This document shows, one piece after another, positions 5,071-35,182 of a stretch of 35,730 nt of DNA (position 1 is its first letter; each line of letters opens with the position of its first letter). The stretch covers positions 1 through 35,730 of the forward strand of contig JAPSIX010000004.1 of the NCBI GenBank assembly GCA_031178475.1. The letters are read 5' to 3'. The translations under genes and the position numbers were made by a program. The notes beneath the pieces are model-generated. The model was not told the DNA's origin. It saw only the letters and a program-made list of their open reading frames with translations, and ran no database searches. The stretch comes from Microbacterium sp. Lineage in GTDB: Bacteria > Actinomycetota > Actinomycetes > Actinomycetales > Microbacteriaceae.

Positions 5071-5071
5071 A

Positions 5072-6148
5072 GTGTCCGTCATCGTGAGTGCTCCCGCAGA
5101 CCCGAGCATCCTCAGCAGGTTCCGCCAGGGCGGCGTCATCCCCGCCCACCCGCTGGCGCTCACCGCCGACCGCCGGCTCGACGAGCGCCGGCAGCTGGCG
5201 CTGAGCCGCTACCAGATCGAAGCCGGCTCGCTCGGGTTGGCCGTCGCCGTGCACTCCACCCAGTTCGCCATCCACGACCGCCATCGCCACCTGCTCGAGC
5301 CGGTGCTCGCGCTCGCGGCCGAGGCGGCGGGCGAGTACCCCGACCGGGCGCCGCTGCTGATCGCCGGCGGCACCGGTCCGACCGCGCAGGCCGTCGCAGA
5401 GGCCGAGCTTGCGGCATCCCTCGGCTTCCACATGGTTCTGCTGTCGACCTACGGCGCCGGCCGGCTCAGCGAGGACGAGCTTCTCGAGCGGGCCAGGGAG
5501 GTGTCGCACGTGCTGCCCGTGATCGGTTTCTACCTGCAACGCGCCGTCGGCGGGCGGTACCTGTCGCGCTCGTTCTGGCAGCGGCTGGCGGAGCTGCCGA
5601 ACGTCGTCGGCATCAAGATCGCCCCCTTCGACCGGTACGCCACACTCGACGTTGTCCACGGGGTCGGGCTGTCGGGCCGCGCCGACGAGGTGGCGCTCTA
5701 CACCGGCAACGACGACACGATCGTGATCGACCTGCTCTCGTCGTTCGCCAGCAAGGACGAGCGGGGGCGGCCCCTGCGGCTGGAGATCGTCGGCGGGCTG
5801 CTCGGCCAGTGGGCCGTCTGGGTGCAGAACGCCGCCGAGATCATGCAGCTCGTCAAGCGCGCCAAGGCGGGGGATGCCGAGGCGATGACCACCCTGCTCG
5901 AGGTCAACCCGAAGCTCACCGACGCGAACGGGGTGATCTTCGACGCCGCAAACGACTTCGCCGGGTGCATCCCCGGCATCCACGAGGTGCTGCGACGCCA
6001 GGGGCTGCTGGAGGGGGTCTGGCTGCTCGACGAGGACGAGCGGCTGTCGCCGGGGCAGCTGGCCGAGATCGATCGGGTCTGGGACGCCTACCCCGAGCTT
6101 CGCGACGACGCGTTCGTCGCCGAGAACCTGGACCGCTGGCTGCGGTAG
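5072..6148 (+). CDS. Dihydrodipicolinate synthase / N-acetylneuraminate lyase family protein (paralog A)
   Basis: TIM-barrel aldolase pattern with VIGFYLQ and putative Schiff-base lysine VVGIKIAPFDRY; GTG start. Confidence 0.8.
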   Translation: MSVIVSAPADPSILSRFRQGGVIPAHPLALTADRRLDERRQLALSRYQIEAGSLGLAVAVHSTQFAIHDRHRHLLEPVLALAAEAAGEYPDRAPLLIAGGTGPTAQAVAEAELAASLGFHMVLLSTYGAGRLSEDELLERAREVSHVLPVIGFYLQRAVGGRYLSRSFWQRLAELPNVVGIKIAPFDRYATLDVVHGVGLSGRADEVALYTGNDDTIVIDLLSSFASKDERGRPLRLEIVGGLLGQWAVWVQNAAEIMQLVKRAKAGDAEAMTTLLEVNPKLTDANGVIFDAANDFAGCIPGIHEVLRRQGLLEGVWLLDEDERLSPGQLAEIDRVWDAYPELRDDAFVAENLDRWLR

Positions 6149-19690: not shown

Positions 19691-20587
19691 TCAGCCGAGC
19701 CGGTCGGCGAGCCAGGTCGCGCACGCCGCGAACACGTGATCCGGCAAGGGGTGGCCGCCGTTGTGCAGCAGGGTGTCGAATCCGCCGGCCGGCCAGTGCT
19801 GTGACGCGCGGTCGGCGACGTCGCGGTTGTGCGGCCCATCCGACGCGCCGCCTCCGGCGTACAGCAGCGGCCGAGGTGCGATCAGTCCGGTGAGTTCATC
19901 GAGGTCCCGATCGGCGGGCGAGCGATCGGCGAAGTACCACGGGTCGCCCCAGTTGGAGTGGGCGAGGCCGAGTCCCGGTTCGTGGGTGACCGCCGCGCGG
20001 ATCCGCACGTCGAGCGCCGCGAGGAACAGCGCGAGCTTGCCGCCGAGCGAGTGTCCGAAAGCTCCGACCCTGCCGGCATCCACCCCTGGCACCTCCGCCA
20101 GCAGGTCGACGGCGAGCATCAGGTCGGCGATGCTGCGTCCCAGCCCGGTGACTCCGGGAAAGCGCGCCGCGTGCGCTGCCGCCGGCGGCCCGTACCGGGT
20201 GGCGAGCTCGGTCGCGCCGTCGTCGCGCACCGCGGTCTCGGCCCACCACGGCACGGCGAGCACGCCGATGCCCCGAGCCGCGAAGCGGTCGGCGTAGTCG
20301 CGGCGCGGTCCCGGGCGATCCAGCGGGTACAGCCTGCTCGGCAGACCGAGCAGGGATTCCGTGTCGTAGAACGGCACGACGACGACCGGCGACGAGCGCG
20401 TGCCGGAGGGCAGCAGCAGCACGCAGGTCCAGTCCGCACCGAACGTGTGCAGATGCAGGTCGAACCGGGTCGTGCCGTGCGGTCCGGCGCCCGGGTCACC
20501 CCACCGCCCGCCCGAGCCGGGGGGCCGACGGACGCCCAGCTGTTCCATCCATCGGCGACGCACCGACTCAGACTCGTCTGTCGTCAC
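19691..20587 (-). CDS. Alpha/beta hydrolase (dienelactone hydrolase-like)
   Basis: Nucleophile elbow GAFGHSLGGKLALFLAALD, HNGGHPLPD; GTG start; same strand and downstream of the transporter genes. Confidence 0.8.
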   Translation of the reverse strand: MTTDESESVRRRWMEQLGVRRPPGSGGRWGDPGAGPHGTTRFDLHLHTFGADWTCVLLLPSGTRSSPVVVVPFYDTESLLGLPSRLYPLDRPGPRRDYADRFAARGIGVLAVPWWAETAVRDDGATELATRYGPPAAAHAARFPGVTGLGRSIADLMLAVDLLAEVPGVDAGRVGAFGHSLGGKLALFLAALDVRIRAAVTHEPGLGLAHSNWGDPWYFADRSPADRDLDELTGLIAPRPLLYAGGGASDGPHNRDVADRASQHWPAGGFDTLLHNGGHPLPDHVFAACATWLADRLG

Positions 20588-20617
20588 CGTCGATCCGCTC
20601 CCTGTTCGACTCCGATG

Positions 20618-20651
20618 ACCCTCACTTCAGGCCGACCCTCACTTCAGGCCG
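20618..20651. repeat. 17-bp tandem duplication ACCCTCACTTCAGGCCG x2
   Basis: Exact copies 20618-20634 and 20635-20651, spanning the permease stop codon. Confidence 0.95.
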
Positions 20652-21526
20652 GACATCATCACTCCGCGCACGAAGTAGCGCTGCAGGAAGACGAAGACGA
20701 GGAACGACGGTACGAAGCTGATCACCGCGGCAGCCATCGTGGTCGCGAGCGGCACCTGCTCCTGCTGGAGGGTGTTCATTCCCACGGTGAGGACGTAGTT
20801 CTCCGAGGACTGCTGTGACACCATCGGCCACAGGAAATCGTTCCAGTGCGCGAGGAAGACGAACGTCGCCAGGGTGGCCATGATCGGCTTGGTCTGCGGC
20901 AGGATGATCGACCAGTAGATGCGGAACTCCCCGGCGCCGTCGATCTTCGCGGCATCCAGCATCTCGTCCGGGATGGAGTGGATGAACTGGCGCATGAGGA
21001 ACATCGCCGAGGCGTTCGCGAGGGTCGGCACGAGCATGCCCCACATCGTGTCCAGGCCGCCCAGGTCTCCGACGAGGATGTACTGGGGAATGATCGTGAG
21101 GTGGTACGGGATCATCAGCATCGCGACGAACACCCAGAAGATGAGCTCGCGCCCCGCGAAGCGCTTCTTAGCGAACGCGTAGCCCGCCATGGAGGCGAAG
21201 ACGAGCACGAGCAGCGTCGACACCACCGAGTAGATCGTCGAGTTGAGCGCCCAGCGGCCGATGCTGCGGCTGTTCAGAGCCTCGGTGAACGCGTCGAGTG
21301 ACAGCGTGTCGGGAAACAGCGCACCCGGCATCGAGATCGGCTGTCCGGGCTGCAGCGCGACGATGACCATCGCGTAGAACGGGAACGCGGTGATCACCGC
21401 GAAGAACATCAGCAGGGCGTGCATGGGCACGAGCCGGCGTGCCTTGCGCATGGCGCGGGGGGTTCTTCTCTGCCGCCTCTTGTTCTCGTCGAGGTCGGGC
21501 AGGACGGTGGCAACGGTCTCGGACAT
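20639..21526 (-). CDS. Carbohydrate ABC transporter permease (MalG type)
   Basis: EAA loop DAAKIDGAGEFRIYWSIILPQTKP; C-terminal RGVMMSGLK. Confidence 0.93.
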   Translation of the reverse strand: MSETVATVLPDLDENKRRQRRTPRAMRKARRLVPMHALLMFFAVITAFPFYAMVIVALQPGQPISMPGALFPDTLSLDAFTEALNSRSIGRWALNSTIYSVVSTLLVLVFASMAGYAFAKKRFAGRELIFWVFVAMLMIPYHLTIIPQYILVGDLGGLDTMWGMLVPTLANASAMFLMRQFIHSIPDEMLDAAKIDGAGEFRIYWSIILPQTKPIMATLATFVFLAHWNDFLWPMVSQQSSENYVLTVGMNTLQQEQVPLATTMAAAVISFVPSFLVFVFLQRYFVRGVMMSGLK

Positions 21527-22467
21527 CAGTCGTTCTTCCCCACGAATTTGCGCTGGATCAGGGAGAGCACCAGCGTGATCAGCAACAGGACGACACCGGC
21601 CGCGCTGGCGTACCCGAAGTCGAAGTAGCCGAAGCCCTGGTCGTAGATCATGAAGGTGAGCGTGTAGCTGGCACGGGCGGGGCCGCCGCCGGTCATCACG
21701 AAGATGGTGTCGAACGTCTGCAGCGACTTGATCGTCTCGATCACGAGCACGAAGAACAGCGCCGGCTTGAGATTCGGCAGGGTGATGTTCCAGAAGCGCT
21801 GCCAGCCGTTGGCGCCGTCGAGCGAGGCGGCTTCGTAGTACTCCTGCGGGATGGCGAGCATGCCCGCGAGCAGGATCAGCATGTTGTACCCGAAGCTGCT
21901 CCACACGCTCAGGATCGCGAGCGTCGGGAGCACCCAGAATCGATCGGTCAGCCAGCCGATCGGCTCGAGGCCCACCGCTTCGAGCAGGGCGTTGACGGGT
22001 CCGCCGCCCGAGAAGATCCACATGAAGACGAGAGCGACGAGCACGCTCGATGTGACCGTGGGCAGGAAGAAGACGGACCGGTAGAACGACATCCCGCGCA
22101 TCGCCCGGTTGCACAGCTGGGCCATGCCCAGCGAGACGATCAGCGCCAGGGGCATCTGGATCGCTGCGAAGATGAAGGTCACCCGCAGCGAGTCGAGAAA
22201 GATCGGATCCTGGAAGAGGCGGATGAAGTGATCCAGGCCGACGAAGGAGTAGGTGCGCTTGAGCGTGTACTCGCCGAAGGCGAGGATCATGCCGTAGATC
22301 GCCGGCCACACCCGGAACACCGCGAACAGGATGACCATCGGGGCGATGAAGATGTACCCCGCGATGGCCTCAGGGGATCTCCACCACGGCCGTCTGCGCG
22401 GGGTCTGCTTCACGGGAAGTTCTCCTGACTCGTCCGGAGGAGCCGGTTTCGTCGTGAGCGTTGTCAT
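21526..22467 (-). CDS. Carbohydrate ABC transporter permease (MalF type)
   Basis: EAASLDGANGWQRFWNITLPNLKP; multiple hydrophobic segments. Confidence 0.93.
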   Translation of the reverse strand: MTTLTTKPAPPDESGELPVKQTPRRRPWWRSPEAIAGYIFIAPMVILFAVFRVWPAIYGMILAFGEYTLKRTYSFVGLDHFIRLFQDPIFLDSLRVTFIFAAIQMPLALIVSLGMAQLCNRAMRGMSFYRSVFFLPTVTSSVLVALVFMWIFSGGGPVNALLEAVGLEPIGWLTDRFWVLPTLAILSVWSSFGYNMLILLAGMLAIPQEYYEAASLDGANGWQRFWNITLPNLKPALFFVLVIETIKSLQTFDTIFVMTGGGPARASYTLTFMIYDQGFGYFDFGYASAAGVVLLLITLVLSLIQRKFVGKND

Positions 22468-22487
22468 GGGGTCCCTTTGAAAAGTCG

Positions 22488-22521
22488 CGTGGCGGGGGCC
22501 GGGTCACCGACCCCCGCCACG
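22488..22521 (-). terminator. Stem-loop between solute-binding protein and permease genes
   Basis: Perfect 11-bp inverted repeat CGTGGCGGGGG (22488-22498) / CCCCCGCCACG (22511-22521). Confidence 0.75.
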
Positions 22522-22534
22522 GGTTCCGTGCTTG

Positions 22535-23776
22535 TCAGAGAATGCGGTTCACTTCTTCGGCCGCGGCGTCCAGCGCCTCCTGCGGGTCGGCGCCCTCGAG
22601 CAGCACCCGCTGGATGTGGGGCTTGATGAGGTCGATGATCTCGCGGGCCTTGGGATGCTGCACGCCGGTGCGCACGTACTGCAGGTGCTTCTCACCCTCG
22701 GCGAGCTGCGGGTCATCGGTGTAGAGAGGAGCGGTGTCGGTGCGCGGCGAGTAGTAACCCGATGCGGGGAGGAACTCGTCGAGGAACTCCACGTCGGCGA
22801 GGTAACGCACCCAGGCCTTGGCGGCGTCGGGAGCGTCGGTCGTGTTGAAGATCGACCATCCTCCGACGGAGCCCGACAGCACGGTCTCCTCGTCGCTCAT
22901 CGGGTCGGCCGTGATGACGGCATCCTCGCCGAGGATGTTCCGGTGGCTGAGGATGGTCCCGCCGCCGCCGTAGGCGACGTTCTCGCGGCCGGCCTCCGAC
23001 TGCTCGAACGGGGGCAGGGTCGCGATCTCCTCCCGCGGGATCCAGCCGTTGTCGGCCATCTCCTTGATGAACTCGAGCGCCTTCACTCCCTCGGGGCCGT
23101 TGAACGCCGCCTCGGTCATGTCCTCGTTCAGCACCTCGCCGCCCGCCTGCCACAGGTACGGGTAGAAGGTGCCGTTGAGCGTGACGCTGCCGTAGTAGTT
23201 GGTGACGTAGTGGCCGGCCTCCTTGACCGCGGGGGCGATCTCCCGCAGCTCGTCCCACGTGGTCGGGCACTCCACGCCGGCGTTCTCGAGCACCTTCACA
23301 TTGCAGAACGGCGTTCCCACGATCACCAGCTGGGGCGAGCCGTACAGGGTGCCGTCGTACGTCATCGCCTCCAGTGACGAGCCGTGGAACTTGTCCCAGT
23401 CGTCACGCAGGTCGTCCAGCGGCAGGAGCAGATCCTCTTCGGCGTAGCGCGGGATGAAGTCGGGGTTGAAGTAGACCACGTCCGGTTCGGTGCCGCCCGA
23501 GACAGCGGTGACGAGCGACTCCTCGCGGCCGCTGAACGCCTGCATCTGCAGGTCGATCTCGACGTCGGGATACTCCTCGTTGAACTTCTCGATGTGCGGC
23601 TCCCACCAGCTGGGGTCCTGGATCTGCCCGAGTGGATAGGGCCAGAACGTCACGGTGCCCGACACCTCCTCCGGCGGGACCTCTTCGGTCGGGGCCGCGC
23701 TGCCGCTGCATGCGGTGAGGAGCAGAACTCCGCTCGTCATGACGGCGCCCGCGGCGAGGGTGGCTTTGTGTCTCAT
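22535..23776 (-). CDS. ABC transporter extracellular sugar-binding lipoprotein
   Basis: Lipobox LLTAC; GTVTFWPYPLG... family 1 SBP pattern. Confidence 0.93.
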   Translation of the reverse strand: MRHKATLAAGAVMTSGVLLLTACSGSAAPTEEVPPEEVSGTVTFWPYPLGQIQDPSWWEPHIEKFNEEYPDVEIDLQMQAFSGREESLVTAVSGGTEPDVVYFNPDFIPRYAEEDLLLPLDDLRDDWDKFHGSSLEAMTYDGTLYGSPQLVIVGTPFCNVKVLENAGVECPTTWDELREIAPAVKEAGHYVTNYYGSVTLNGTFYPYLWQAGGEVLNEDMTEAAFNGPEGVKALEFIKEMADNGWIPREEIATLPPFEQSEAGRENVAYGGGGTILSHRNILGEDAVITADPMSDEETVLSGSVGGWSIFNTTDAPDAAKAWVRYLADVEFLDEFLPASGYYSPRTDTAPLYTDDPQLAEGEKHLQYVRTGVQHPKAREIIDLIKPHIQRVLLEGADPQEALDAAAEEVNRIL

Positions 23777-23828
23777 GATCCCTCCATTGGGTTCGGATGC
23801 TCCGAGCCGATCGCGGTCCAAGCGGGTA

Positions 23829-23844
23829 TTGCAATCGGTTGCAG
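23829..23844. promoter_or_regulatory. LacI-type operator A (TTGCAATCGGTTGCAG)
   Basis: Near-palindrome directly downstream of the -10 of the 22535-23776 promoter; 20 bp identical to operator C. Confidence 0.8.
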
Positions 23845-23846
23845 TA

Positions 23847-23876
23847 ACGGTATCCGCGACTGGAACGGTGTGTCAA
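23847..23876 (-). promoter_or_regulatory. Promoter of second sugar ABC operon: TTGACA-18-TACCGT
   Basis: Minus strand TTGACA (23876-23871), TACCGT (23852-23847). Confidence 0.65.
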
Positions 23877-23907
23877 GAGCGCAGGCCGTCGAGTCTGGAT
23901 CGGGACA

Positions 23908-24897
23908 TCACCACGCACGCTGCGCTCCGCCGTGGTCGGCGCTGTCCTGCGCGAGGAGAGCCACGCGCGTCGCGAGCAGGCTCTGCGCGGTCGTGATCTC
24001 GGGCTCGGCACCCGCGGCGATCGCGTCGAAGAAGTAGGCGGCGGGGCGTCGCCCGCGCGGCAGGGCCACCTGGTGGCGGGGGCGCTCGTGCGTCTCCACA
24101 GAGAGGGTGTCGTAGGCCCAGTCCAGTTCGGCGGTGCCAGCAGAGCCGGTCAGGCGCATCCGGTAGTGCCCGTGGACCGCCGCCGCCTGCGGCCCGAGCC
24201 AGCTCGCATCGATCGTCGCCGTGACGTCGCCGGCGCTCAGAAGCACGGCGACGTGGTCGTCGAAGTGGGGATGCTCGGCGTGCCGGGCGTTGCCCGTGAA
24301 TGCCGAGACGGTGCCGTGGGCCGCGCCGCTCAACGCCAGCACGAGGTCGATGTCGTGCACGGGCAGATCTCCGGCGATGCCTCCGTACGTCTCGCGACGC
24401 AGGAACCAGTCCGGCCGCGACGGGAGGTTGAGCTTGTGCGGGCCCGTGCTCGCGACGAGTGCCAGCTGCCCGAGCACGCCGTCGGCGAGCAGCGACCGCG
24501 CGGCGAGCGTGGCGGGATAGAACCGCTTCTCGAAGACGACCGAGACGTGCCGGCCGGTCTCGGAAGCGAGCCGCTCGATGCGATCGAGGTCGGTGAGCGT
24601 CGTGCACAGCGGCTTGTCGGCGATGACGTGCGCGCCGGCCGAGAGCGCAGCCGACACCGCATCGGCGCGTCGGCTGTAGACGCCGGCGACCAGCGCCACA
24701 TCGACCTCATGGGCATGCAGCAGTTCGGCAGGTTCGTCGTAGACGGGGGTGTCGCCGAGGCCGCGCAGATACTGGGCGCGCATCGCCGGGTCGCTCTCGG
24801 CGGCCGCGATCAGGGTGCAGTCCGGGCGGGCGGCTACCTCGTCGAGCGCATACGCCACATGCGGATGCGCGGCGCCGAGGATCGCGACGCGGATCAC
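23908..24897 (-). CDS. Gfo/Idh/MocA family oxidoreductase (atypical Rossmann motif GAAHPHV)
   Basis: IADKPLCTTLTDLDRIERLA; GGIAGDLPVHDIDLVLALSG; GTGA overlap with upstream gene. Confidence 0.85.
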   Translation of the reverse strand: MIRVAILGAAHPHVAYALDEVAARPDCTLIAAAESDPAMRAQYLRGLGDTPVYDEPAELLHAHEVDVALVAGVYSRRADAVSAALSAGAHVIADKPLCTTLTDLDRIERLASETGRHVSVVFEKRFYPATLAARSLLADGVLGQLALVASTGPHKLNLPSRPDWFLRRETYGGIAGDLPVHDIDLVLALSGAAHGTVSAFTGNARHAEHPHFDDHVAVLLSAGDVTATIDASWLGPQAAAVHGHYRMRLTGSAGTAELDWAYDTLSVETHERPRHQVALPRGRRPAAYFFDAIAAGAEPEITTAQSLLATRVALLAQDSADHGGAQRAW

Positions 24898-25913
24898 GGA
24901 GCGTGTTCCGTGCTCACACGGCGGCCGGATTCGGCGGCGGCGTAGACGGCGCACAGCAGGCGCATCGTGCGGGCCGCCTCCACGGCGTCGACGGCGCTTC
25001 GCCGACCTTCGCGGACGGCCGCCACGACGTCCTCCCACGTCGCGATGTGCCCGTGCAGGCCGATCGCGGCGGGGTCGGCGGCTCCGCTCGCCGCTGTCCC
25101 GGCGGCCTCCGGCCGGGGCAGTTCGGGGAACTCCCACCGGGTGATCTCGCCCTGCCCGATCTCGACGACGCCGCGCGAGGTGTGCAGGGACAGCGTCGCC
25201 GGTGAGCCGGGCGGCGTCGCCGTGGACGTGCTGATCACACCGAGTGCGCCGCTCTCGAAGCGCACCGTCGCGACGGTCGTGTCCTCGGCGGACATGTCGT
25301 GACCAAGCGTGCCGTACTGGGCCGTGACGTCGGTGACCGTTCCGCACAGCCACTGCAGCAGGTCAATGTTGTGCACCCCCTGGTTCATCAGGGACCCTCC
25401 GGCGGGCATCCTCGAGCGCCAGGGGGAGGCCGCGTAGTACGCATCGTCGCGCAGCCAGTGCACGTGCGTCGTGGCGAGGCGCAGTTCGCCGAGGACGCCC
25501 TCCGCCAGCATCCGCTTCACGGCGACGACCTCGGGCTCGAACCGGCGCTGCGCGACCATCGCGATGACGACGCCGTTCTCGTCCTGCGCGCGCACCAGCC
25601 GGTCGGCGTCGGCCGTCGAGAGCGCGATCGGCTTCTCGACGACGGCGTGCTTGCCCGCCGCGGCCGCCCCGAGGGTGAGCGCGGCGTGCGTCTCCGATGG
25701 CGTGCAGACGGCGACGGCGTCGACGTCGCCTCGCGACAGGATGCCGTCCGGCGTGGTCTGCGTCGCTTCGGGCCAGCCGCATTCGGCCATCGTCGTCGTG
25801 GAACCTCCGCTGAAGGCGGTGACGCGCACTCCCGGGATGTTCCTCAGCGCTCGCGCGTGGGTGGTTCCGATGCTGCCCAGGCCCAAGATGCCTATGCGGA
25901 GGTCAGTCGTCAC
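24894..25913 (-). CDS. Gfo/Idh/MocA family oxidoreductase
   Basis: GILGLGSIGTTHARAL; VVEKPIAL; GGSLMNQGVHNIDLLQWLCG; GTG start. Confidence 0.92.
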   Translation of the reverse strand: MTTDLRIGILGLGSIGTTHARALRNIPGVRVTAFSGGSTTTMAECGWPEATQTTPDGILSRGDVDAVAVCTPSETHAALTLGAAAAGKHAVVEKPIALSTADADRLVRAQDENGVVIAMVAQRRFEPEVVAVKRMLAEGVLGELRLATTHVHWLRDDAYYAASPWRSRMPAGGSLMNQGVHNIDLLQWLCGTVTDVTAQYGTLGHDMSAEDTTVATVRFESGALGVISTSTATPPGSPATLSLHTSRGVVEIGQGEITRWEFPELPRPEAAGTAASGAADPAAIGLHGHIATWEDVVAAVREGRRSAVDAVEAARTMRLLCAVYAAAESGRRVSTEHAP

Positions 25914-25967
25914 GGCGGATTCTCCCGTCTGCAGTTCCCTTCCAGCGTAGGGGTGGCGTCGAAGGAG

Positions 25968-25983
25968 TTGCAACCGATTGCAA
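25968..25983. promoter_or_regulatory. LacI-type operator B (TTGCAACCGATTGCAA)
   Basis: Between divergent oxidoreductase genes; matches operators A and C on the opposite strand at 15/16. Confidence 0.8.
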
Positions 25984-26054
25984 GAATTGTTGGCCCCATG
26001 CCAGGATGGTGGTGAGCGCCGCCGGGCGAAACGACAACGACGACGGGAACAGCA

Positions 26055-26945
26055 GTGACACGGATCGGCTTCATCGGAACCGAGAACTCGCACACCGACC
26101 ACTTCATCCGGTTCCTCAATCAGGAGGAACGACACCCCGGCTTCCGCGCCAGTGCGCTGGCCGGTGGCCGCAGCGAGAGGAACGCCGCGCTGGCAGAGGC
26201 GGGCGGGATCGAGGTCATCGTCGACGAGCCGACCGACCTGATCGGCCAGGTCGACGCGGTGATCATCTCCACCCGCGACGGCGCGCTGCACCGTGCGCAG
26301 GCCGAGCCGTTGCTCGCGGCGGGGATCCCGGTGCTCGTCGACAAGCCTCTCGCGACGACCGGCGACGATGCGGATGCGATCATCGCGGCCGCCGAGGCCG
26401 CCGGCACGGTGCTCTTCTCCGCGTCCGCGCTGAGGTTCCTCCCCGAGATCGAAGAGCTGCGGGCGACGGACGGCGCGCTCCGTCACCTGCACATCTCGGG
26501 TGCGGGCGACCCGGAGAGCGTGTACTCCGGGCTGTTCTTCTACGGCATCCATCACGTCGAGGCGGCGATGGAGATCCTCGGCGACCCGCCCGTCGCAGAT
26601 GCCCTCGAGGTGTCGGTGCGCCGCACCGGCGACACCACCGTGGCCACCGTGGAACTCGGCGGAACACCCGTGACGTTCACGTTCGTGGCCCCGGGGGAGG
26701 GCGCCCCGACTCCGTTCCACGCGACGGGCGTGTACGCGGGCGACGTCCGGGCGCGCACGCTCGCCCTCGACCCCGACTACAACGCGCCGGCTCTCGCGCG
26801 GTTCATCGGTGCGCTCGAGTCCGGGCAGTGGCCGGCGGATGCTGACAAGCTGCGCGACCCCATCCGCGTCCTCGCCGCGATCGTCGCGGCTCTTCCCCAG
26901 GCGGCGCTTCCCCAGGCGGCGCTTCCGCAGGCAGAGGAGAACTGA
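26055..26945 (+). CDS. Gfo/Idh/MocA-like oxidoreductase (atypical motif GTENSH)
   Basis: MTRIGFIGTENSHTDHF; VDKPLATT; FYGIHHVEAAMEILG; GTG start. Confidence 0.8.
   Translation: MTRIGFIGTENSHTDHFIRFLNQEERHPGFRASALAGGRSERNAALAEAGGIEVIVDEPTDLIGQVDAVIISTRDGALHRAQAEPLLAAGIPVLVDKPLATTGDDADAIIAAAEAAGTVLFSASALRFLPEIEELRATDGALRHLHISGAGDPESVYSGLFFYGIHHVEAAMEILGDPPVADALEVSVRRTGDTTVATVELGGTPVTFTFVAPGEGAPTPFHATGVYAGDVRARTLALDPDYNAPALARFIGALESGQWPADADKLRDPIRVLAAIVAALPQAALPQAALPQAEEN
26886..26930 (+). repeat. 15-bp in-frame tandem repeat x3 encoding (AALPQ)3
   Basis: GCGGCTCTTCCCCAG / GCGGCGCTTCCCCAG / GCGGCGCTTCCGCAG. Confidence 0.95.
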
Positions 26946-27940
26946 TGACCACCGCACCCCTCCGTTTCGGCGTCATCGGCGTCGGAGTGATCGGACGCCA
27001 GCACGTGCAGCGCCTGCTGTCGTATCCGGGCGATGCGGCGCTCGTGGCCATCGCCGACATGTCGGCGGACGCCGCCCGCGCTGTCGCCGGGGAGTACGGC
27101 ACCACGGCGGCGGAGTCCGTCGACGACCTGCTCGCCCGGGACGACATCGACGCGGTCGTCATCGCGATTCCGTCCGGCCTGCACGCCGACATGGCCGTGG
27201 CGGCGCTCGACGCCGGCAAACACGTGCTTCTGGAGAAGCCGATCGATGTCACCGTCGACGCGGCCGACCGGATCATCGCGGCCGAGGAGCGCTCGGGCAA
27301 GGTCCTCACCGTGGTGAGTCAGCGGCGCTTCGCGCCCGAGAACAGCTTTCTGCACAGCGCGATCCGCTCGGGCGACTTCGGGCGGATCACCTCCGCGAAC
27401 ATCGAGATCGCCCTGTGGCGCAGCCAGGAGTATTACGACTCCGGTTCGTGGCGCGGCACCTGGAAGCTCGATGGCGGCGGTGCGCTGATGAATCAGGGCG
27501 TGCACATGGTCGACCTCATCCTGTGGCTGCTGGGTGACGTCGAAGAGGTGCACGCGTACGGTGGCCTGCTCGCGCATGAGCGCATCGAGGTCGAGGACAC
27601 CATCGCCATCACCGCCCGGTTCGCCAGCGGAGCGGTGCTCACGTTCCTCGCCAGCACGGCGTCGTACGGCGACTTCCCGATCCGCGTCGCGGTGATGGGC
27701 GACGCGGGCGCCGCGGTGACACTCGACGAGCGCTTCAGCCACTTCCGGCTCGAAAGCGGCGCCGATCTGCCGGACTTCGAGCCGGTGGATGTCGGCCTCG
27801 CGGGCCTCGACGACTTCGTCAATGCGGTCCGGGGCGGTCGCTCACCGCTGATCACCTCACGCGAGGCGCGTGCTGCGGTGGCGTTCATCGAGGCGGCGTA
27901 CGAGTCGATGCGCACCGGGCAGCCGGTCACACCGCGCTGA
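26945..27940 (+). CDS. Gfo/Idh/MocA family oxidoreductase (inositol 2-dehydrogenase-like)
   Basis: GVIGVGVIGRQHVQRL; LLEKPIDV; GGGALMNQGVHMVDLILWLLG. Confidence 0.92.
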   Translation: MTTAPLRFGVIGVGVIGRQHVQRLLSYPGDAALVAIADMSADAARAVAGEYGTTAAESVDDLLARDDIDAVVIAIPSGLHADMAVAALDAGKHVLLEKPIDVTVDAADRIIAAEERSGKVLTVVSQRRFAPENSFLHSAIRSGDFGRITSANIEIALWRSQEYYDSGSWRGTWKLDGGGALMNQGVHMVDLILWLLGDVEEVHAYGGLLAHERIEVEDTIAITARFASGAVLTFLASTASYGDFPIRVAVMGDAGAAVTLDERFSHFRLESGADLPDFEPVDVGLAGLDDFVNAVRGGRSPLITSREARAAVAFIEAAYESMRTGQPVTPR

Positions 27941-27952
27941 CGTTCATCGTTC

Positions 27953-28957
27953 TCAACCCAGCCGGTGGTAGTTCTCGGGGGTGACCTCGGAGCGCAGGGT
28001 GCCGTCATGCAGGAAGCTCTCGATCTCGCGCACCACGTGCTCTCCCTGAGCGAACCGCGCCTGCACCGTGCCGCCGGCGACGTGCGGCAGGAGTATCGCG
28101 TTGTCGCGGCCGAACAGATCGCTCTCGGCCGGCAGGGGCTCGGTGGTGTACACGTCGAGCCCCACACGCAACCGTCCCGATCGCACCTCGTCGAACAGCG
28201 CCTCCTCGTCGGTGACCTGCGCACGCGCCGCATTGATGACGATCGCCTGGTCGGGCAGCAGCGCGAAGTGCGCCGCCCCGATCATCCCCGCAGTCTCCGG
28301 GGTGGCCGGTGCGCAGATCGCGAGGACGTCGCTCGTCGCGCACAGCTCGTCGAGGCTGCAGAGCTCGAGTCCCAGCTCACGCGCATCGGCGTCCGACGCG
28401 TAGGGGTCGTACGCGCGGACGCCGGTGGCGCCGAGTCCCCGCACCATCCGCGCGTAGTGGCGTCCGACGCGGCTGAGAGACACGATGCCGATCCGCTGGG
28501 CGGTGATGCTCTGCCCCAGCACACCAGAGCCGCCTTCCCGCCAGTCGCGGCTGCTCTGGAAGCGCCGGTCGTGCCACACGAGGTTGCGCAGCTGCGCCAG
28601 GGTCAGCGTCACCGACATCTCTGCGACGGCGAGCGCCATGGCATCGGCACCGCCCTGCGCGAGGCGCACGTCGCCGCCGAGCGTCTCGACCGGGAAGAGG
28701 CTGCGCACCGAAGCGGCACTGTGCACGGCGAGCCGGAGCCGTCGCCCGCGGAGGACGGCGGGATCGAAGCGCGCCGTGCTCCATGAGGTGATGAGCACGT
28801 CGTACTCGTCGGCGAGGTCGTCGGGAACGGACACCCGGCCGTCCTTCTCAGCTCCGCGGACGAGCTCGCCGAGACCGGCGAGCCGCTCGCGCGTCGCGTC
28901 GTCGTAGAGGCGCCCGTAGTCGGCATCCGCGATGGCGATGTAGATGCGTGCGGTCAT
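27953..28957 (-). CDS. D-isomer-specific 2-hydroxyacid dehydrogenase family protein
   Basis: IGIVSLSRVGRHYARMVRGLGATGVRAYDPY; VINAARAQVTDEEALFDEVRSGRLRVGLDVYTTEPLP; LLPHVAGGT; RBS GAGGAGAG. Confidence 0.9.
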   Translation of the reverse strand: MTARIYIAIADADYGRLYDDATRERLAGLGELVRGAEKDGRVSVPDDLADEYDVLITSWSTARFDPAVLRGRRLRLAVHSAASVRSLFPVETLGGDVRLAQGGADAMALAVAEMSVTLTLAQLRNLVWHDRRFQSSRDWREGGSGVLGQSITAQRIGIVSLSRVGRHYARMVRGLGATGVRAYDPYASDADARELGLELCSLDELCATSDVLAICAPATPETAGMIGAAHFALLPDQAIVINAARAQVTDEEALFDEVRSGRLRVGLDVYTTEPLPAESDLFGRDNAILLPHVAGGTVQARFAQGEHVVREIESFLHDGTLRSEVTPENYHRLG

Positions 28958-28977
28958 TGCTCTCCTCGTCGGGAAGG

Positions 28978-30009
28978 TCAGCTCCGGTGCACGACAGCGC
29001 CGGCAACGGTGACGGTGCTGATGCGGATGCCGTCGTCGTCGATCTCGATGTCGACTCGGTCGCCGCCGGCTTCGGCGCGTTCTGCGACGCCGAGGATCCG
29101 GGCGGGGTTCGCGGTCGCCATCCGCACCACCTCGTCCTCGCGGAGGGGAAGGTTGTGGATCGCCCACGCGACGCACCCGAGCAGCGACCTCCCGGAGCCG
29201 GCGAGCAGTCCACTGCGGGGCAGGGAGAGCCGCCCGTCCTCACCGACGAGGACGTCGCCTCCGACCGGGGTGCGGTGCAGGCCCGGTGCGGCACCGGCGA
29301 GTGCCGCCGAATCGGATGTCAGGATGCTGCGGTCGACGCCCTTGGCGCGGATCATCGCGGTGAGTGCATCGGCGGGCAGGTGGTGGCCGTCGGCGATGAA
29401 CATGGCGGTGAGGGCGTCGGCTGCGAGCTGAGCCCAGATGTGGTTGGGATGCCGCGGGAGGGTGCGGTGCGTGCCGTTGCCGAGGTGCGTCGAGAGGGTG
29501 GCGCCGGCGGCGACCGCCTCGCGCACCTGGTCGGGACCGGGTGCGCAGTGGCCGATCGACGTGCGGATGCCGTGGGCTGCCGCGTACCTGATGTACTCCA
29601 GCGCGCGGTCGCGCTCGGGGGCGAGCGTGACGATCCGCACCAGGCCCTCGGCAGCGTGCTGCCAGCGGCCGAGCTCGGCGATGTCGGGGTCGCGCAGGTG
29701 GGCCGGGTCATGCGCTCCGCGGGGACCGTCATCGGCGTTCAAGGCCGGGCCCTCGACGTGCACGCCCGCGATCGAGTGCGCCACGAGCGGATCGTGCCGG
29801 CGTGCCTCGGCGACCGCGGCGAGGACATGGCGGATCTTCTCCTCGGGCGCGGTGATCACCGTCGGCAGATACGTCGTCACGCCCTGCGTCCACAGCACGC
29901 GGGTGAGGTCGACGACCGTCTGCGCCGTCATGTCGTCGGCGTTGACGTCGATGCCGGCGTAGCCGTTCACCTGGAGGTCGACCAGGCCTGGCCACGAGCG
30001 GGACGTCAT
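28978..30009 (-). CDS. nagA: N-acetylglucosamine-6-phosphate deacetylase-like amidohydrolase (short N-terminus)
   Basis: GLVDLQVNGYAG, GVHVEGPALN, SIGHCAPG, STHLGNGTH, LTSDSAAL; ATGA overlap with NagB-like gene. Confidence 0.82.
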   Translation of the reverse strand: MTSRSWPGLVDLQVNGYAGIDVNADDMTAQTVVDLTRVLWTQGVTTYLPTVITAPEEKIRHVLAAVAEARRHDPLVAHSIAGVHVEGPALNADDGPRGAHDPAHLRDPDIAELGRWQHAAEGLVRIVTLAPERDRALEYIRYAAAHGIRTSIGHCAPGPDQVREAVAAGATLSTHLGNGTHRTLPRHPNHIWAQLAADALTAMFIADGHHLPADALTAMIRAKGVDRSILTSDSAALAGAAPGLHRTPVGGDVLVGEDGRLSLPRSGLLAGSGRSLLGCVAWAIHNLPLREDEVVRMATANPARILGVAERAEAGGDRVDIEIDDDGIRISTVTVAGAVVHRS

Positions 30010-30836
30010 AGGGGGAGGGTAGCGGTCGGCGCGTCCTCCGCGTCGTGAGGGCGCTCGGCGTTCTGCCTCGCGGCGTTCTGCCTCTCGAGCTGCGATGCTG
30101 CCGCCTCGTCGAGGAACCAGGTCACATCCGCGTGTGTGCGAAGGAAGCTCGCGGGGTTCGAGTCGTCGACCGGCCCGCCGTGCGCCCGGGCGACGGCCGC
30201 GGCCTTGTGTGCGCCGATCACGCTGCACACGAGTGATCGTCCGCTCAGCAGCGTGGGGACGGTGAGGGTCAGCGCCTGCGTCGGCACGGCCGGGAGGTCG
30301 GGGAACAGTCCCTCATCCACCTGCTGCTGGCGGGAGGCGGTGTCGAGCGTGACGACCCGGGCGGGCTCGGGGTCGGCCGGGTCGGCAGCGCCGGGCTCGT
30401 TGAACGCGATGTGGCCGTTCACTCCCACGCCCAGACACACGAGGTCGATAGGAGCCTGCTGGATCAGCCTTGCGTAGCGCTCCGCCTCGGCGGCCGGCTC
30501 GCCGTCGGTGCGGATGCGGGCGAAGCCGTCATGCGCCTGGCGGGGGAGGCGCTCCCGGAGCCAGAGTCCGAACCCGGCGGGGTGCTCGGGGGGAAGGCCG
30601 AGGTACTCGTCCATGTGGAACGAGCGCACCCTGCTCCAGTCGATGCCGGGGGCGTCGGCGAGGTGCGTGAGCATCGCGTCCTGCGAGGGTGCGCTGGCGA
30701 AGATGACCCGGGCCTCGCCCCGGGCGGAGAGCGCCTCGCGGAGGACTTCTGCGGCGCGGTCGGCTGCTCGCCTCCCCGCCTCGTGGGCGTCGGGGGCGAT
30801 GTGGACTCTGGGAGTGGCCGAGCCGGTTCCGTCCAT
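30006..30836 (-). CDS. nagB: Glucosamine-6-phosphate deaminase-like protein
   Basis: SFHMDEYLGLPPEHPAGFG, LVCLGVGVNGHIAFNEPG, ALTLTVPTLLSGRSLVCSVIGAHKA. Confidence 0.9.
   Translation of the reverse strand: MDGTGSATPRVHIAPDAHEAGRRAADRAAEVLREALSARGEARVIFASAPSQDAMLTHLADAPGIDWSRVRSFHMDEYLGLPPEHPAGFGLWLRERLPRQAHDGFARIRTDGEPAAEAERYARLIQQAPIDLVCLGVGVNGHIAFNEPGAADPADPEPARVVTLDTASRQQQVDEGLFPDLPAVPTQALTLTVPTLLSGRSLVCSVIGAHKAAAVARAHGGPVDDSNPASFLRTHADVTWFLDEAAASQLERQNAARQNAERPHDAEDAPTATLPL
30056..30085 (-). repeat. 15-bp in-frame tandem repeat x2 encoding RQNAA-RQNAE at the NagB C-terminus
   Basis: CGGCGTTCTGCCTCG / CGGCGTTCTGCCTCT (14/15). Confidence 0.9.
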
Positions 30837-30845
30837 GTATGCTCC

Positions 30846-30861
30846 TTGCAATCGGTTGCAG
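30846..30861. promoter_or_regulatory. LacI-type operator C (TTGCAATCGGTTGCAG)
   Basis: TTGCAATCGGTTGCAGTAAC identical over 20 bp to operator A; lies between divergent nagB and DHDPS-family genes. Confidence 0.82.
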
Positions 30862-30863
30862 TA

Positions 30864-30893
30864 ACCATACGAGATAGCAGCCGGGGCGGTCAA
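30864..30893 (-). promoter_or_regulatory. nagBA promoter: TTGACC-18-TATGGT
   Basis: Minus strand TTGACC (30893-30888), TATGGT (30869-30864); same layout as the promoter with operator A. Confidence 0.65.
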
Positions 30894-30921
30894 CATGACC
30901 GCGTTGAGACGGAAGGTTCTG

Positions 30922-31986
30922 ATGCCCGACATCCCATCCCTGCGTCCCGAAGCTGCTCGGACCCTCGCCCGCGGCGCGGTCATCCCTGCCCATCCGCTGG
31001 CGCTCGACGCCGACCGCCGTCTGGATGAGCGGCGGCAGCGGGCACTCACCCGCTACTACCTCGCGGCGGGTGCGGGCGGACTGGCGGTCGGGGTGCACAC
31101 GACCCAGTTCGAGATCCGCGACCCCGAGCACGCGCTCTACGAACCGGTGCTCGCGCTCGCCGCGGAGGAGATGGATGCGCGCGCGGACGCTTCGGTCGTG
31201 CGCATCGCCGGCGTCGTCGGCGACACACCGCAGGCCGTTGCCGAGGCCGAGCTGGCGCGCGGCCTGGGATACGACGCCGTTCTGCTGAGCCCGGTGGTCG
31301 AGGGGGCGGATCCCGCTCGGCTGCTGGAGCGCGCGAGGGCGGTCGCTGAGGTGATGCCGGTCATCGGGTTCTACCTGCAGGCCGCGATCGGAGGCCCGGT
31401 GCTCGAGCGCGCCTTCTGGCGTGAGTTCGGCCGGATCCCGGCGGTCGTCGCCGTCAAGGCGGCTCCGTTCGACCGGTACCGCACCCTCGAGCTGGTGCGC
31501 GGGATCGCCGAGTCCGGGCGGGCCGACGGGATCGCCCTGTACACCGGGAACGACGACGCGATCGTCGCCGACCTGCTGGCCGAGTACCACGTCGACAGCG
31601 CGGACGGGCCCAGGACGATGCGCTTCGTGGGCGGGTTGCTGGGTCAGTGGGCGGTCGGCACGCAGGCGGCGGTGCGGATGCTGGCGCTGGCGCATCGTGC
31701 TTCCGCGGGCGACCACGCGGCTCATCGCGCACTGTCCGCGGCGGCGGTCGACCTGCTGGATGCCAATCAGGCCGTGTTCGACCCGGCCAACGGCTTTCAC
31801 GGCGTGATCGCCGGCGTGCACGAGGTGCTGCGGCAGCAGGGTCTGCTCGACGGGGTGTGGTGCCTCGACCCCGAGGAGGGGCTGTCGCCCGGCCAGGCCG
31901 ATGAGATCCGGCGGGTTCGCGCGGCGTACCCCGAGCTGCACGACGACGCGTTCATCGCCGCCCACCGCGACGAGTGGCTCCGCTGA
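30922..31986 (+). CDS. Dihydrodipicolinate synthase / N-acetylneuraminate lyase family protein (paralog B)
   Basis: Shares VIPAHPLAL, ADRRLDERRQ, EPVLALAAE, QAVAEAELA, PVIGFYLQ, APFDRY, ALYTGNDD and GGLLGQWAV with the 5072-6148 product; ATG 30922 has GGAAGG upstream, whereas the track's ATG 30895 abuts the nagB -35. Confidence 0.82.
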   Translation: MPDIPSLRPEAARTLARGAVIPAHPLALDADRRLDERRQRALTRYYLAAGAGGLAVGVHTTQFEIRDPEHALYEPVLALAAEEMDARADASVVRIAGVVGDTPQAVAEAELARGLGYDAVLLSPVVEGADPARLLERARAVAEVMPVIGFYLQAAIGGPVLERAFWREFGRIPAVVAVKAAPFDRYRTLELVRGIAESGRADGIALYTGNDDAIVADLLAEYHVDSADGPRTMRFVGGLLGQWAVGTQAAVRMLALAHRASAGDHAAHRALSAAAVDLLDANQAVFDPANGFHGVIAGVHEVLRQQGLLDGVWCLDPEEGLSPGQADEIRRVRAAYPELHDDAFIAAHRDEWLR

Positions 31987-32008
31987 GCCCTCGACGTCTC
32001 GGTGTCGG

Positions 32009-32980
32009 TCAGGCGGCGGGGCCGGTCGACTGGCGGTGCACGAAGGTGCCCTCCAGTCGCGTCGGGCCTGCCGGCTCTCCGGTGATGGCGACGCGCAGCG
32101 TCTCGAGGGCGGCGCGGGCCAGCTCGGCGTTCGGCGTCTGCACCGTGCTGAGCGTGGGGGTGAGCACGCGGGCGAGCAGCACGTCGTCGCATCCGACGAC
32201 CGACACGTCGTCGGGCACCCGGCGCCCTCCCTCGGCGAGACCGGCGATCACTCCGCAGGCGGTGAGGTCGTCGAAGGCGAAGGCCACGGTGGCGTCTGTC
32301 GCGAGCAGCTCCTGCGCGGCATCCCGTCCGCCGTCGTAGGAGGCGCTGAACGGGCCCAGCTCCACCAACTCGACGTCCTTCCCGCCCGCCCAGGTGCGGA
32401 TGGCCGTGCGGCGCTGCTCCGCGGCCCACGAGCCCACCGTGCCGCTGAGCAGGGCGATGCGGCGGTGACCGAGGGAGTAGACGTGATCGCCCGCCACGTG
32501 CAGGGCGCTGGTCATGTCGCAGACGACCGAGGCGAGGCCGTCTACCTCGCGGTTGAGCACGACAGTCGGTGTGGTGCCGATCGCCTCGCGCAGGATGTCG
32601 TCGGGGGCGAGCGGAGAGGCGAGCAGGATGCCGTCGACCTGCGATCGCAGCCGGGCGATCAGCGACGGCTCGTCGGCGGCGTCTCCCTGCGCATCGACGA
32701 GGATCACCGTGGCATCATCGGCGGCGGCCTGGATCTCGCGCACCAGCGGCGGGAAGAACGGGTTGGTGATGTCGGGGACCAGAAGCCCGACCGCGCCGGT
32801 GCTGCCTGTGGCGAGCCGGCGGGCGATCCGGTTCGGCTGGAAGCCGAGCCGCTCGGCGGTCTCGAGCACGCGCTGGCGGACGTCGGCCTTGACCAGCTCG
32901 GGCCGGCTGAACGCCCGCGAGACCGTCGCGGCGTGTACGCCGAGCTCCTCGGCGATCGAGTAGATCGTCACCTTTCCCAC
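32009..32980 (-). CDS. LacI family transcriptional regulator
   Basis: N-terminal HTH VTIYSIAEELGVHAATVSRAFSRPELV...RLGFQPNRIARRLATG; C-terminal periplasmic-binding-like domain; GTG start. Confidence 0.95.
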   Translation of the reverse strand: MGKVTIYSIAEELGVHAATVSRAFSRPELVKADVRQRVLETAERLGFQPNRIARRLATGSTGAVGLLVPDITNPFFPPLVREIQAAADDATVILVDAQGDAADEPSLIARLRSQVDGILLASPLAPDDILREAIGTTPTVVLNREVDGLASVVCDMTSALHVAGDHVYSLGHRRIALLSGTVGSWAAEQRRTAIRTWAGGKDVELVELGPFSASYDGGRDAAQELLATDATVAFAFDDLTACGVIAGLAEGGRRVPDDVSVVGCDDVLLARVLTPTLSTVQTPNAELARAALETLRVAITGEPAGPTRLEGTFVHRQSTGPAA

Positions 32981-33049
32981 GCCCGACCCCTTTCGTCGTC
33001 ACGACTGACGCGCCATCCCCGTTCAAGACAGGCTAGTGCCCGGTGCGTC

Positions 33050-34456
33050 TCACCGGCCATGCACGCCACCCCCGAGCCGGGCGATGCACACCATCGCGTC
33101 GTCGTCTTCGGCGAGCTCGGCAGAGACGAGGGCGACCAGCGCCCTGACCGGGTCGGCGCACGACGGTGCGTCGGCGATCGCCGATGCCGGATCCTCGACG
33201 GCCCGTCCCTCGTTGAGCTCGGCGAGGACGAACCGCGTCCATGCTGCGATGACGTTCAGTCCGGCCGTGACGTCTCGGCCCCGCTCGCGCTCGCCTCGAA
33301 CGACGTCGACCACCCGGCTGCTCAGCTTGACGCTGCCGTCGGCGGCGATCTGCCGCAGCGAGTGTTCGATGGCGGCGTTGCGGAAGCGGTCCTCCAGGGC
33401 GCGGCGGTAGTCGGCGGTGCACAGTTCGGGATGGGCGGCGAGGGCGCGCTCGTCGAGGTCCCACAGCTCGTGCACTTCTCGCGCGCATTCCGGGTCGGCG
33501 ATCGCCTCGGCCACCGTGCGGTGCCCGCGCAGCAACCCGGAGTAGGCCAACAGCGAGTGGGCGCCGTTCAGCATCCACAGCTTGCGCTTCTCGTACGGCC
33601 CGACATCGTCCACGAAGACGGCCCCGGCGCGCTCCCACTCCGGCCGCGGACCGCGGAACTCGCCGGCGAGGATCCAACTCGAGTACGGCTCGGTCACCAC
33701 GGGTGCGGCATCCCGGTACCCGCACCCCGCTTCGACAGCGGCGATGTCGGCGTCGGTGATGCGCGGAGTGATGCGGTCGACGGACGTGCTGATGAAGTCG
33801 GCGCAGGCGTCGATCCACGAGGTGTCGTGTGCCTCGCCGAGGCGGGCCAGTCCGTGCAGGGCGGCTCGCACGGCATCCGCGTTGGCAGCGAGGTTGTCGC
33901 ACGGGATCACGGCGACGGGCCCGGCGCGCGCTCGGCGTCGGCCGTCGAGCGCCCAGAGCAGCCGGCCCGGCATGGTGCGCAGAGCGCCGTCCGGGATCGC
34001 GGCGGGTGCGGCGCGGAGCGAGAAGGCTCCGGCATCGCGCAGAATCGCGGCGTCCGCGGTGATGTCGGGGTCGCCGGCGTCGATGCGTCCGTGGGAGTCG
34101 AGGCGGTACCCCTTCTCGGTCACGGTGAGGGTGATGACGGCCACCTCCCGGCGGGAGACCAGTTCGCGCAGGGTGGCGGTCTCGGCGCCGTCGTGCACTG
34201 CCACGACCGAGCGCACGAGCCGGTGATGGTCGCCGTCGTCGCTGCGTTCGATGAGCGTGTACAGCCCGTCCTGTGCGGCGAGTACGCGCGCGGCTTCGGG
34301 GCTGCGCCCGGTGAACGCGGCGATTCCCCACTCGGGGGCGGCCTGTGCGGTGTACCAGGCCTGATGTGCGCGGTGGAACGCCCCGAGCCCGAGGTGGACG
34401 ATCCGCACCGGTGCCGGCGGTTCGTCCCGGACAGGCGACGGCAGAGGGGACGACAC
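33050..34456 (-). CDS. Mannitol dehydrogenase family protein (D-mannonate/fructuronate oxidoreductase-like)
   Basis: VHLGLGAFHRAHQAWYT, VIPCDNLAANAD, FISTSVDRITPRIT, KLWMLNGAHSLLAYSGLL; GTG start. Confidence 0.92.
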   Translation of the reverse strand: MSSPLPSPVRDEPPAPVRIVHLGLGAFHRAHQAWYTAQAAPEWGIAAFTGRSPEAARVLAAQDGLYTLIERSDDGDHHRLVRSVVAVHDGAETATLRELVSRREVAVITLTVTEKGYRLDSHGRIDAGDPDITADAAILRDAGAFSLRAAPAAIPDGALRTMPGRLLWALDGRRRARAGPVAVIPCDNLAANADAVRAALHGLARLGEAHDTSWIDACADFISTSVDRITPRITDADIAAVEAGCGYRDAAPVVTEPYSSWILAGEFRGPRPEWERAGAVFVDDVGPYEKRKLWMLNGAHSLLAYSGLLRGHRTVAEAIADPECAREVHELWDLDERALAAHPELCTADYRRALEDRFRNAAIEHSLRQIAADGSVKLSSRVVDVVRGERERGRDVTAGLNVIAAWTRFVLAELNEGRAVEDPASAIADAPSCADPVRALVALVSAELAEDDDAMVCIARLGGGVHGR

Positions 34457-34462
34457 GGCCTC

Positions 34463-34491
34463 ACCCTACTGGGTGGTACACCGCAGTGCAA
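34463..34491 (-). promoter_or_regulatory. Promoter of mannonate-type dehydrogenase: TTGCAC-17-TAGGGT, probably leaderless
   Basis: Minus strand TTGCAC (34491-34486), TAGGGT (34468-34463), then 6 nt to GTG 34456. Confidence 0.6.
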
Positions 34492-34501
34492 CCGCTTGCA
34501 G
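34486..34501. promoter_or_regulatory. LacI-type operator D (GTGCAACCGCTTGCAG)
   Basis: TGCAACCGnTTGCA core shared with A-C; overlaps the -35. Confidence 0.7.
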
Positions 34502-34525: not shown

Positions 34526-35182
34526 TCAGCGGTACCATTCCTCGTCGATGGATGCCAGGCGAGACGGCATCACCTCGTCGCCGAGACCGAAGAACCGCTG
34601 GAAGCTCAGCAGCAGCGGCCGCCACCGGTCGGGATCGATCCGGTTGGCGTGCCCCGGCAGCCGCAGCGAGTCGCGCACGTGCACGCGCGTGATGGCGATC
34701 TCGACGGCGAGGACGGATGCCTGTGCGACATCGGTGCCGCCGAGCGGATGCAGTGCTCGCACGGTTCCTTCGAGGTGCACCGGCAACTCGGCCAGGCGGG
34801 GCGGCTCGACGGTCTCCGCGTCGAGCGGAGTGAGGTCGGCCAGGCCGAACTTGTCGCGTACCGGGCGGTAGCCGGCGGCCCGCTTGCGGGCGGACACCTC
34901 CGGCCGGCCGGTGGTGAGCGCCAGGCGGTCGACGAAGTCGACCTCGCGTTCGGACGGCAGGTTGATCACCACTTCGCGGGTGGCGATCAGATTGCGGCCG
35001 GTCTGGCTGTTCGCGGCGATGCCGACCACGGCGGTCTGTCCGAGCCACCACACCGACGAGTTCGGTGCGATGTTGGGGTGCCCGGTGTCATCGACCGTGG
35101 TCAGCAGCGCGACAGGGGTGCCGAAGTAGAGGATGGCGGGTGCGATCGGACGATGGGGATCGAGGTGGGTGAGGTTCGGCAT
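34526..35182 (-). CDS. Flavin reductase-like / split-barrel FMN-binding protein
   Basis: PVALLTTVDDTGHPNIAPNSSVWWLGQTAVVGIAANSQTGRNLIATREVVINLP is typical of flavin reductase-like domains. Confidence 0.82.
   Translation of the reverse strand: MPNLTHLDPHRPIAPAILYFGTPVALLTTVDDTGHPNIAPNSSVWWLGQTAVVGIAANSQTGRNLIATREVVINLPSEREVDFVDRLALTTGRPEVSARKRAAGYRPVRDKFGLADLTPLDAETVEPPRLAELPVHLEGTVRALHPLGGTDVAQASVLAVEIAITRVHVRDSLRLPGHANRIDPDRWRPLLLSFQRFFGLGDEVMPSRLASIDEEWYR

Follow-up and report, generated by a model that had tools for sequence, protein, structure and literature searches.

A LacI-family protein encoded in a 35,730-nucleotide stretch of a Microbacterium sp. genome (hereafter the window) is strongly supported as the local regulator of about 14 genes around it, which it would control from four sites in the window; this support comes from the operator being conserved next to 17 orthologs of the protein and from the lack of scattered sites. 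We infer that a dimer of the protein binds a TGCAACCG(A/C)TTGCA operator and that, without inducer, it would block six transcription units at the four window sites and one unit elsewhere in the genome. At site 4, control would extend to a mannitol-type dehydrogenase gene and then to lacI itself, and at a fifth site, on contig C279, to a secreted carbohydrate-binding/beta-propeller protein. An imported saccharide or its catabolite, the inducer probably being related to N-acetyl-amino-sugars, would bind the sensor domain and release the operators. Repression is taken to be steric because the operator overlaps either the predicted start region just after the -10 element (sites 1, 3 and 5) or the predicted -35 element (sites 2 and 4). 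For this reading, namely steric and inducer-released repression of the six window units and of the one elsewhere, we estimate a probability of about 0.9.

A pattern search located exact copies of TGCAANCGNTTGCA in the window as 14-mers starting at 23830, 25969, 30847 and 34487. The four palindromes reported in the first-pass annotation are therefore real, however, the starts given there (23829, 25968, 30846 and 34486) are each one base too low because a flanking base was counted in. TGCAACCGNTTGCA reads on the + strand at sites 2 and 4 and on the - strand at sites 1 and 3, and the 20 identical bases attributed to sites 1 and 3 (TTGCAATCGGTTGCAGTAAC) are indeed shared, at 23829-23848 and 30846-30865. 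The source is a draft genome of 2.19 Mb in 320 contigs. It contains five exact copies of the pattern and none of a reversed control pattern; four of the five lie within this 10.7 kb and one at C279:1548, so that the random genome-wide scatter which, according to the first-pass annotation, would speak against a shared regulon is not what is seen. Allowing one mismatch adds two sites (C89:8021 and C285:11). With as many as two allowed, the total is 30 places for the pattern and 87 for the reversed control, which confines the excess to exact copies. The oriented 14-mer TGCAACCGMTTGCA, present in five copies here (Poisson P for at least five copies, ~3e-10), is found in 10 of the 299 other family genomes searched, once in each, is absent from the remaining 289 and never occurs twice in one of these genomes. 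The rarity of both patterns elsewhere, together with the Poisson estimate, argues that the four sites are real and not due to chance. As the assembly is 77% complete, further sites and LacI genes may be absent from it.

In the first half of the window, no operator was detected at up to two mismatches and no position scored above 6.2 bits with the matrix described below. The first importer, the dihydrodipicolinate synthase (DHDPS) superfamily gene at 4994-6148 and the heparinase-like gene at 9686-13810 were left out of the regulon, since no operator was found there. The last of these, in the same locus but without an operator, encodes a protein of 1374 residues carrying Big_2 and a heparinase II/III C-terminal match and is a candidate polysaccharide lyase.

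Table 1. Operators and predicted regulon genes in the window, with supporting matches and matrix scores.
Feature	Position	Strand	Operator sequence	Matches and context	Score (bits)
Operator 1	23830..23843		TGCAACCGATTGCA on - strand	53 bp upstream of SBP start codon	28
Operator 2	25969..25982		TGCAACCGATTGCA	between divergent Gfo/Idh/MocA genes	28
Operator 3	30847..30860		TGCAACCGATTGCA on - strand	between divergent nagB and DHDPS-like gene	28
Operator 4	34487..34500		TGCAACCGCTTGCA	30 bp upstream of mannitol-type dehydrogenase gene	24
Alpha/beta hydrolase/esterase-like, last importer-operon gene	19691..20587	-		weak AXE1/DLH
ABC importer permease 2	20639..21526	-		PF00528; 74% in Georgenia L026
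ABC importer permease 1	21526..22467	-		PF00528
ABC importer solute-binding protein (SBP)	22535..23776	-		PF01547; 44-56% homologs adjoin operator in relatives
Gfo/Idh/MocA oxidoreductase 1	23908..24897	-		62-71% in relatives
Gfo/Idh/MocA oxidoreductase 2	24894..25913	-		65% in Georgenia L026
Gfo/Idh/MocA oxidoreductase 3	26055..26945	+		PF01408; 43-64% homologs adjoin operator in relatives
Gfo/Idh/MocA oxidoreductase 4	26945..27940	+		PF01408, PF22725; 68-71% in G420 and G467
D-2-hydroxyacid dehydrogenase	27953..28957	-		20 bp after nagA; PF02826; 52-55% homologs in relatives' loci
NagA-like N-acetylglucosamine-6-phosphate deacetylase	28978..30009	-		PF01979; TIGR00221 1.2e-51, below cut-off
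NagB-like glucosamine-6-phosphate deaminase	30006..30836	-		PF01182; MDEY and GHIAFNEPG motifs
DHDPS-superfamily protein	30922..31986	+		PF00701 weak; 56-59% homologs in relatives' loci
LacI-family repressor	32009..32980	-		HTH and periplasmic-binding-protein-like sensor domain; Pfam LacI, Peripla_BP_3
Mannitol_dh family dehydrogenase (mannonate/fructuronate/arabinitol-type)	33050..34456	-		upstream of lacI; PF01232, PF08125

Gene starts were set by ribosome-binding sites (SBP, ATG 23776; NagB, ATG 30836; DHDPS-like gene, ATG 30922; Mannitol_dh gene, GTG 34456), and with these starts all four operators are non-coding, in agreement with the initial description of them as always intergenic and in promoter regions. 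Promoters were called from consensus matches only. At site 1 a promoter-like pair, TTGACA-18-TACCGT, ends 3 bases before the operator, and similarly at site 3 the pair TTGACC-18-TATGGT for nagB ends 3 bp before it; operators 1 and 3 would cover the transcription start, a position which may explain the 20 bases they have in common. The TTGCAA arms of the palindrome at site 2 are candidate -35 elements in both directions (7/12 consensus matches each), and at site 4 a possible -35 element, TTGCAC, unreported by the scan but read by eye, lies inside the operator at 17 bp from TAGGGT. This predicted geometry fits repression. The flavin reductase gene at 34526-35182 was rejected as a target of operator 4, which lies beyond its 3' end.

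Transcription units were assigned by strand and spacing. Site 1 is predicted to serve the importer operon (SBP-permease-permease-hydrolase), site 2 the Gfo2-Gfo1 and, divergently, the Gfo3-Gfo4 units, site 3 the nagB-nagA-2-hydroxyacid dehydrogenase unit together with the DHDPS-like gene transcribed away from it, and site 4 Mannitol_dh followed by lacI. The location of lacI behind operator 4, via the gene at 34456-33050, implies that it is probably autoregulated, and a similar order of operator, Mannitol_dh and lacI is seen in one relative (L129). The NagA, NagB and Mannitol_dh proteins all score under the NCBIfam equivalog cut-offs, NagB with 105.7 against the 236.9 of TIGR00502. Loci with an ortholog of the regulator hold homologs of most target genes, many of them directly behind an operator; operators stand before or beside homologs of NagB/NagA, the importer, the Gfo and hydroxyacid dehydrogenase genes, the DHDPS-like gene and the propeller protein, and in G476 just upstream of a homolog of the hydrolase-like gene that closes the importer operon. 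The two DHDPS-superfamily paralogs of the window (4994-6148 and 30922-31986) are 57% identical, and their homologs in relatives are about equally close to both.

The regulator itself belongs to the LacI family by its domains, with 34.1 bits for PF00356 (cut-off 27) and 94.2 bits for PF13377, and its sites have the features of LacI-family operators, being even palindromes with a central CG that accompany a hinge leucine (ARRL in this protein). It is the only LacI gene in the window, as first noted, however the genome has 19 such genes and hence proximity alone argues weakly for the assignment. The link between protein and sites, which the first-pass annotation had put forward as an inference, is now backed by comparative genomics as predicted binding. 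Besides Kribbella, a Georgenia genome and Nonomuraea, 13 more genomes of the class gave orthologs at 53-61% identity, and no ortholog was detected at E <= 1e-70 in the 299 other genomes sampled from the family. The operator is present with at most one mismatch in 17 of 17 ortholog loci examined. Searching 13 ortholog genomes gave 49 exact oriented sites in total, and in four of them (G448, G420, G525 and G467, of 5.6-7.7 Mb) all 21 such sites fall within 39 kb of the lacI ortholog; operators thus lie near the regulator and are conserved with its orthologs. Additional sites on other contigs were seen in some of the remaining ortholog genomes, several of which also encode a LacI paralog at 40-42% identity.

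A 22-column matrix was built from 56 sites in the ortholog loci, none taken from the window, and wherever possible the sites were turned to place C at position 6. With this matrix the four window sites reach 24-28 bits and the best other position in the window 6.2. The ortholog consensus operator is identical to operator 4 and slightly asymmetric; at position 9 of the 56 oriented sites, 38 have C, 10 have A and 8 have G. One residue counts against the assignment: at position 16 of the recognition region the window protein has His where the aligned orthologs have Ser. The hinge leucine is usually tied to the central CG of the operator (PMC2329647). It is replaced by Thr in orthologs L132, L133, L136 and L137 and by Ile in L134, and the operators nearby keep the central CG. 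The absence of the regulator from the 299 sampled genomes of the family and its presence in other families of the class suggest horizontal acquisition of the 19691-34456 locus.

Predicted control reaches beyond the window, as supported by the fifth exact site, which is located on contig C279 at 37 bp before the gene for a secreted 975-residue CBM_4_9/propeller protein (L005, G000:C279 1599-4526). Homologs of this protein at 50-60% adjoin operators in L125, L126, L128 and L130, and the contig also encodes a NanE-like epimerase. No meaningful PDB relative of the propeller protein was detected with single-sequence or profile searches, and it is possibly a new family acting on polysaccharides. Relatives have as many as four copies of its gene in tandem beside lacI, as seen in G448.

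It is extremely unlikely that the palindromes are due to chance or are a mobile repeat that plays no part in regulation. Sites 1 and 3 with their 20 identical bases would suit a repeat, but the flanks differ at the other sites, five copies here contrast with ten in the 299 other family genomes, and promoter position and gene association are consistent over the 17 ortholog loci. It is conceivable, yet very unlikely, that the sites are bound mainly by another of the remaining 18 LacI proteins, possibly a global regulator, and that the targets of the local LacI differ from these or overlap with them in part. The number of LacI genes in the genome leaves room for such a regulator, and as an even palindrome with central CG the motif is typical of the LacI family (PMC4052901). 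In other genomes, moreover, TGCAANCGNTTGCA-like sites lie next to the genes of LacI paralogs at 42-45%, which means that the motif is shared outside the clade of the window protein. On the other hand, no other LacI protein of this genome exceeds 39% identity to the window protein and none of those placed in a maximum-likelihood tree joins the 14-row clade (support 100/99) that the window protein forms with the orthologs, the sites of a global regulator would not be expected to cluster four of five in 10.7 kb, and the operator follows the LacI ortholog across genera.

Members of the LacI family are mostly repressors. This, along with the overlap of the sites with predicted -35 or start regions, where repressors act, makes it very unlikely that the protein is instead an activator or works by DNA looping between sites, even though the sites span 11 kb and relatives have paired sites within one promoter region; in the window the spacing is of kilobases, with one site per promoter region. 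Steric repression by the adjacent LacI protein is therefore the reading we retain. The paralogs at 42-45% form a sister group (L138-L144) in which some of the similar sites are symmetric (TGCAAGCGCTTGCA), which suggests a stepwise divergence of operator specificity.

What these genes do together can be approached from their recurrence. The first-pass annotation had joined the targets in one pathway, and this is plausible as much of the gene set recurs under the same operator in relatives. The regulated genes probably serve uptake and breakdown of an amino-sugar compound. The operator-bearing cluster of G448 also contains a ROK-family kinase and a NanE-like N-acetylmannosamine-6-phosphate epimerase, and an N-acylglucosamine 2-epimerase lies beside lacI in many relatives; a single query did not find the latter in this 77% complete genome. 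NagA and NagB here, taken with the kinase and epimerases of relatives, suggest an N-acetyl-amino-sugar branch, and the genes for the Gfo/Idh/MocA, DHDPS-like and hydroxyacid dehydrogenase proteins point to another branch. Tentatively, and with rather more doubt than confidence, one may imagine an undescribed route for an acidic or N-acetyl-mannosamine/glucosamine polysaccharide, in which the new secreted propeller family acts on the polymer and the four Gfo/Idh/MocA proteins, the DHDPS-like protein and the 2-hydroxyacid dehydrogenase convert the residues, feeding amino sugar into NanE/NagA/NagB. The gene set marks an amino-sugar or polysaccharide pathway that has probably not been described before, and any of the operators could serve as a reporter for finding the inducer. 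What began as a guess from four palindromes becomes a regulon that is defined in several actinobacterial families and has a named regulator, an operator matrix and a conserved set of genes.

LacI regulons, as surveyed by Ravcheev et al. 2014 (PMC4052901), typically have even palindromes with central CG, are local in about 90% and autoregulated in 72% of cases, and have sites mostly upstream of catabolic operons with clustered targets; Actinobacteria are underrepresented in that survey. The present system is like these local sugar regulons in its even central-CG palindrome, clustered targets and likely autoregulation. By sequence, the window protein is closest to solved CcpA structures and to the NCBIfam RbsR model, with which it shares the LacI fold, the hinge leucine and a central-CG operator. 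However, its scores are far under the NCBIfam equivalog cut-offs (178 of 382 for RbsR, 145 of 442 for CcpA) and its site set is local, not global. No regulon with this operator or this set of genes came up in a literature search, with RegPrecise outside its scope; the arrangement is familiar as a type, the local LacI regulon, and the combination of this operator and gene set is the part for which no matching description was found. In function, the predicted regulon resembles that of NagR, the LacI-type N-acetylglucosamine regulator of gammaproteobacteria (PMC5343134). Both have a LacI-family regulator and a nagA and nagB core expanded to polymer-related genes, and operator 3 stands upstream of nagB and nagA as in NagR-type regulons, a placement conserved in relatives. 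Unlike the NagR system, no PTS or chitin genes are seen here, and the present locus adds an ABC-type importer together with Gfo/Idh/MocA, DHDPS-like and 2-hydroxyacid dehydrogenase genes.
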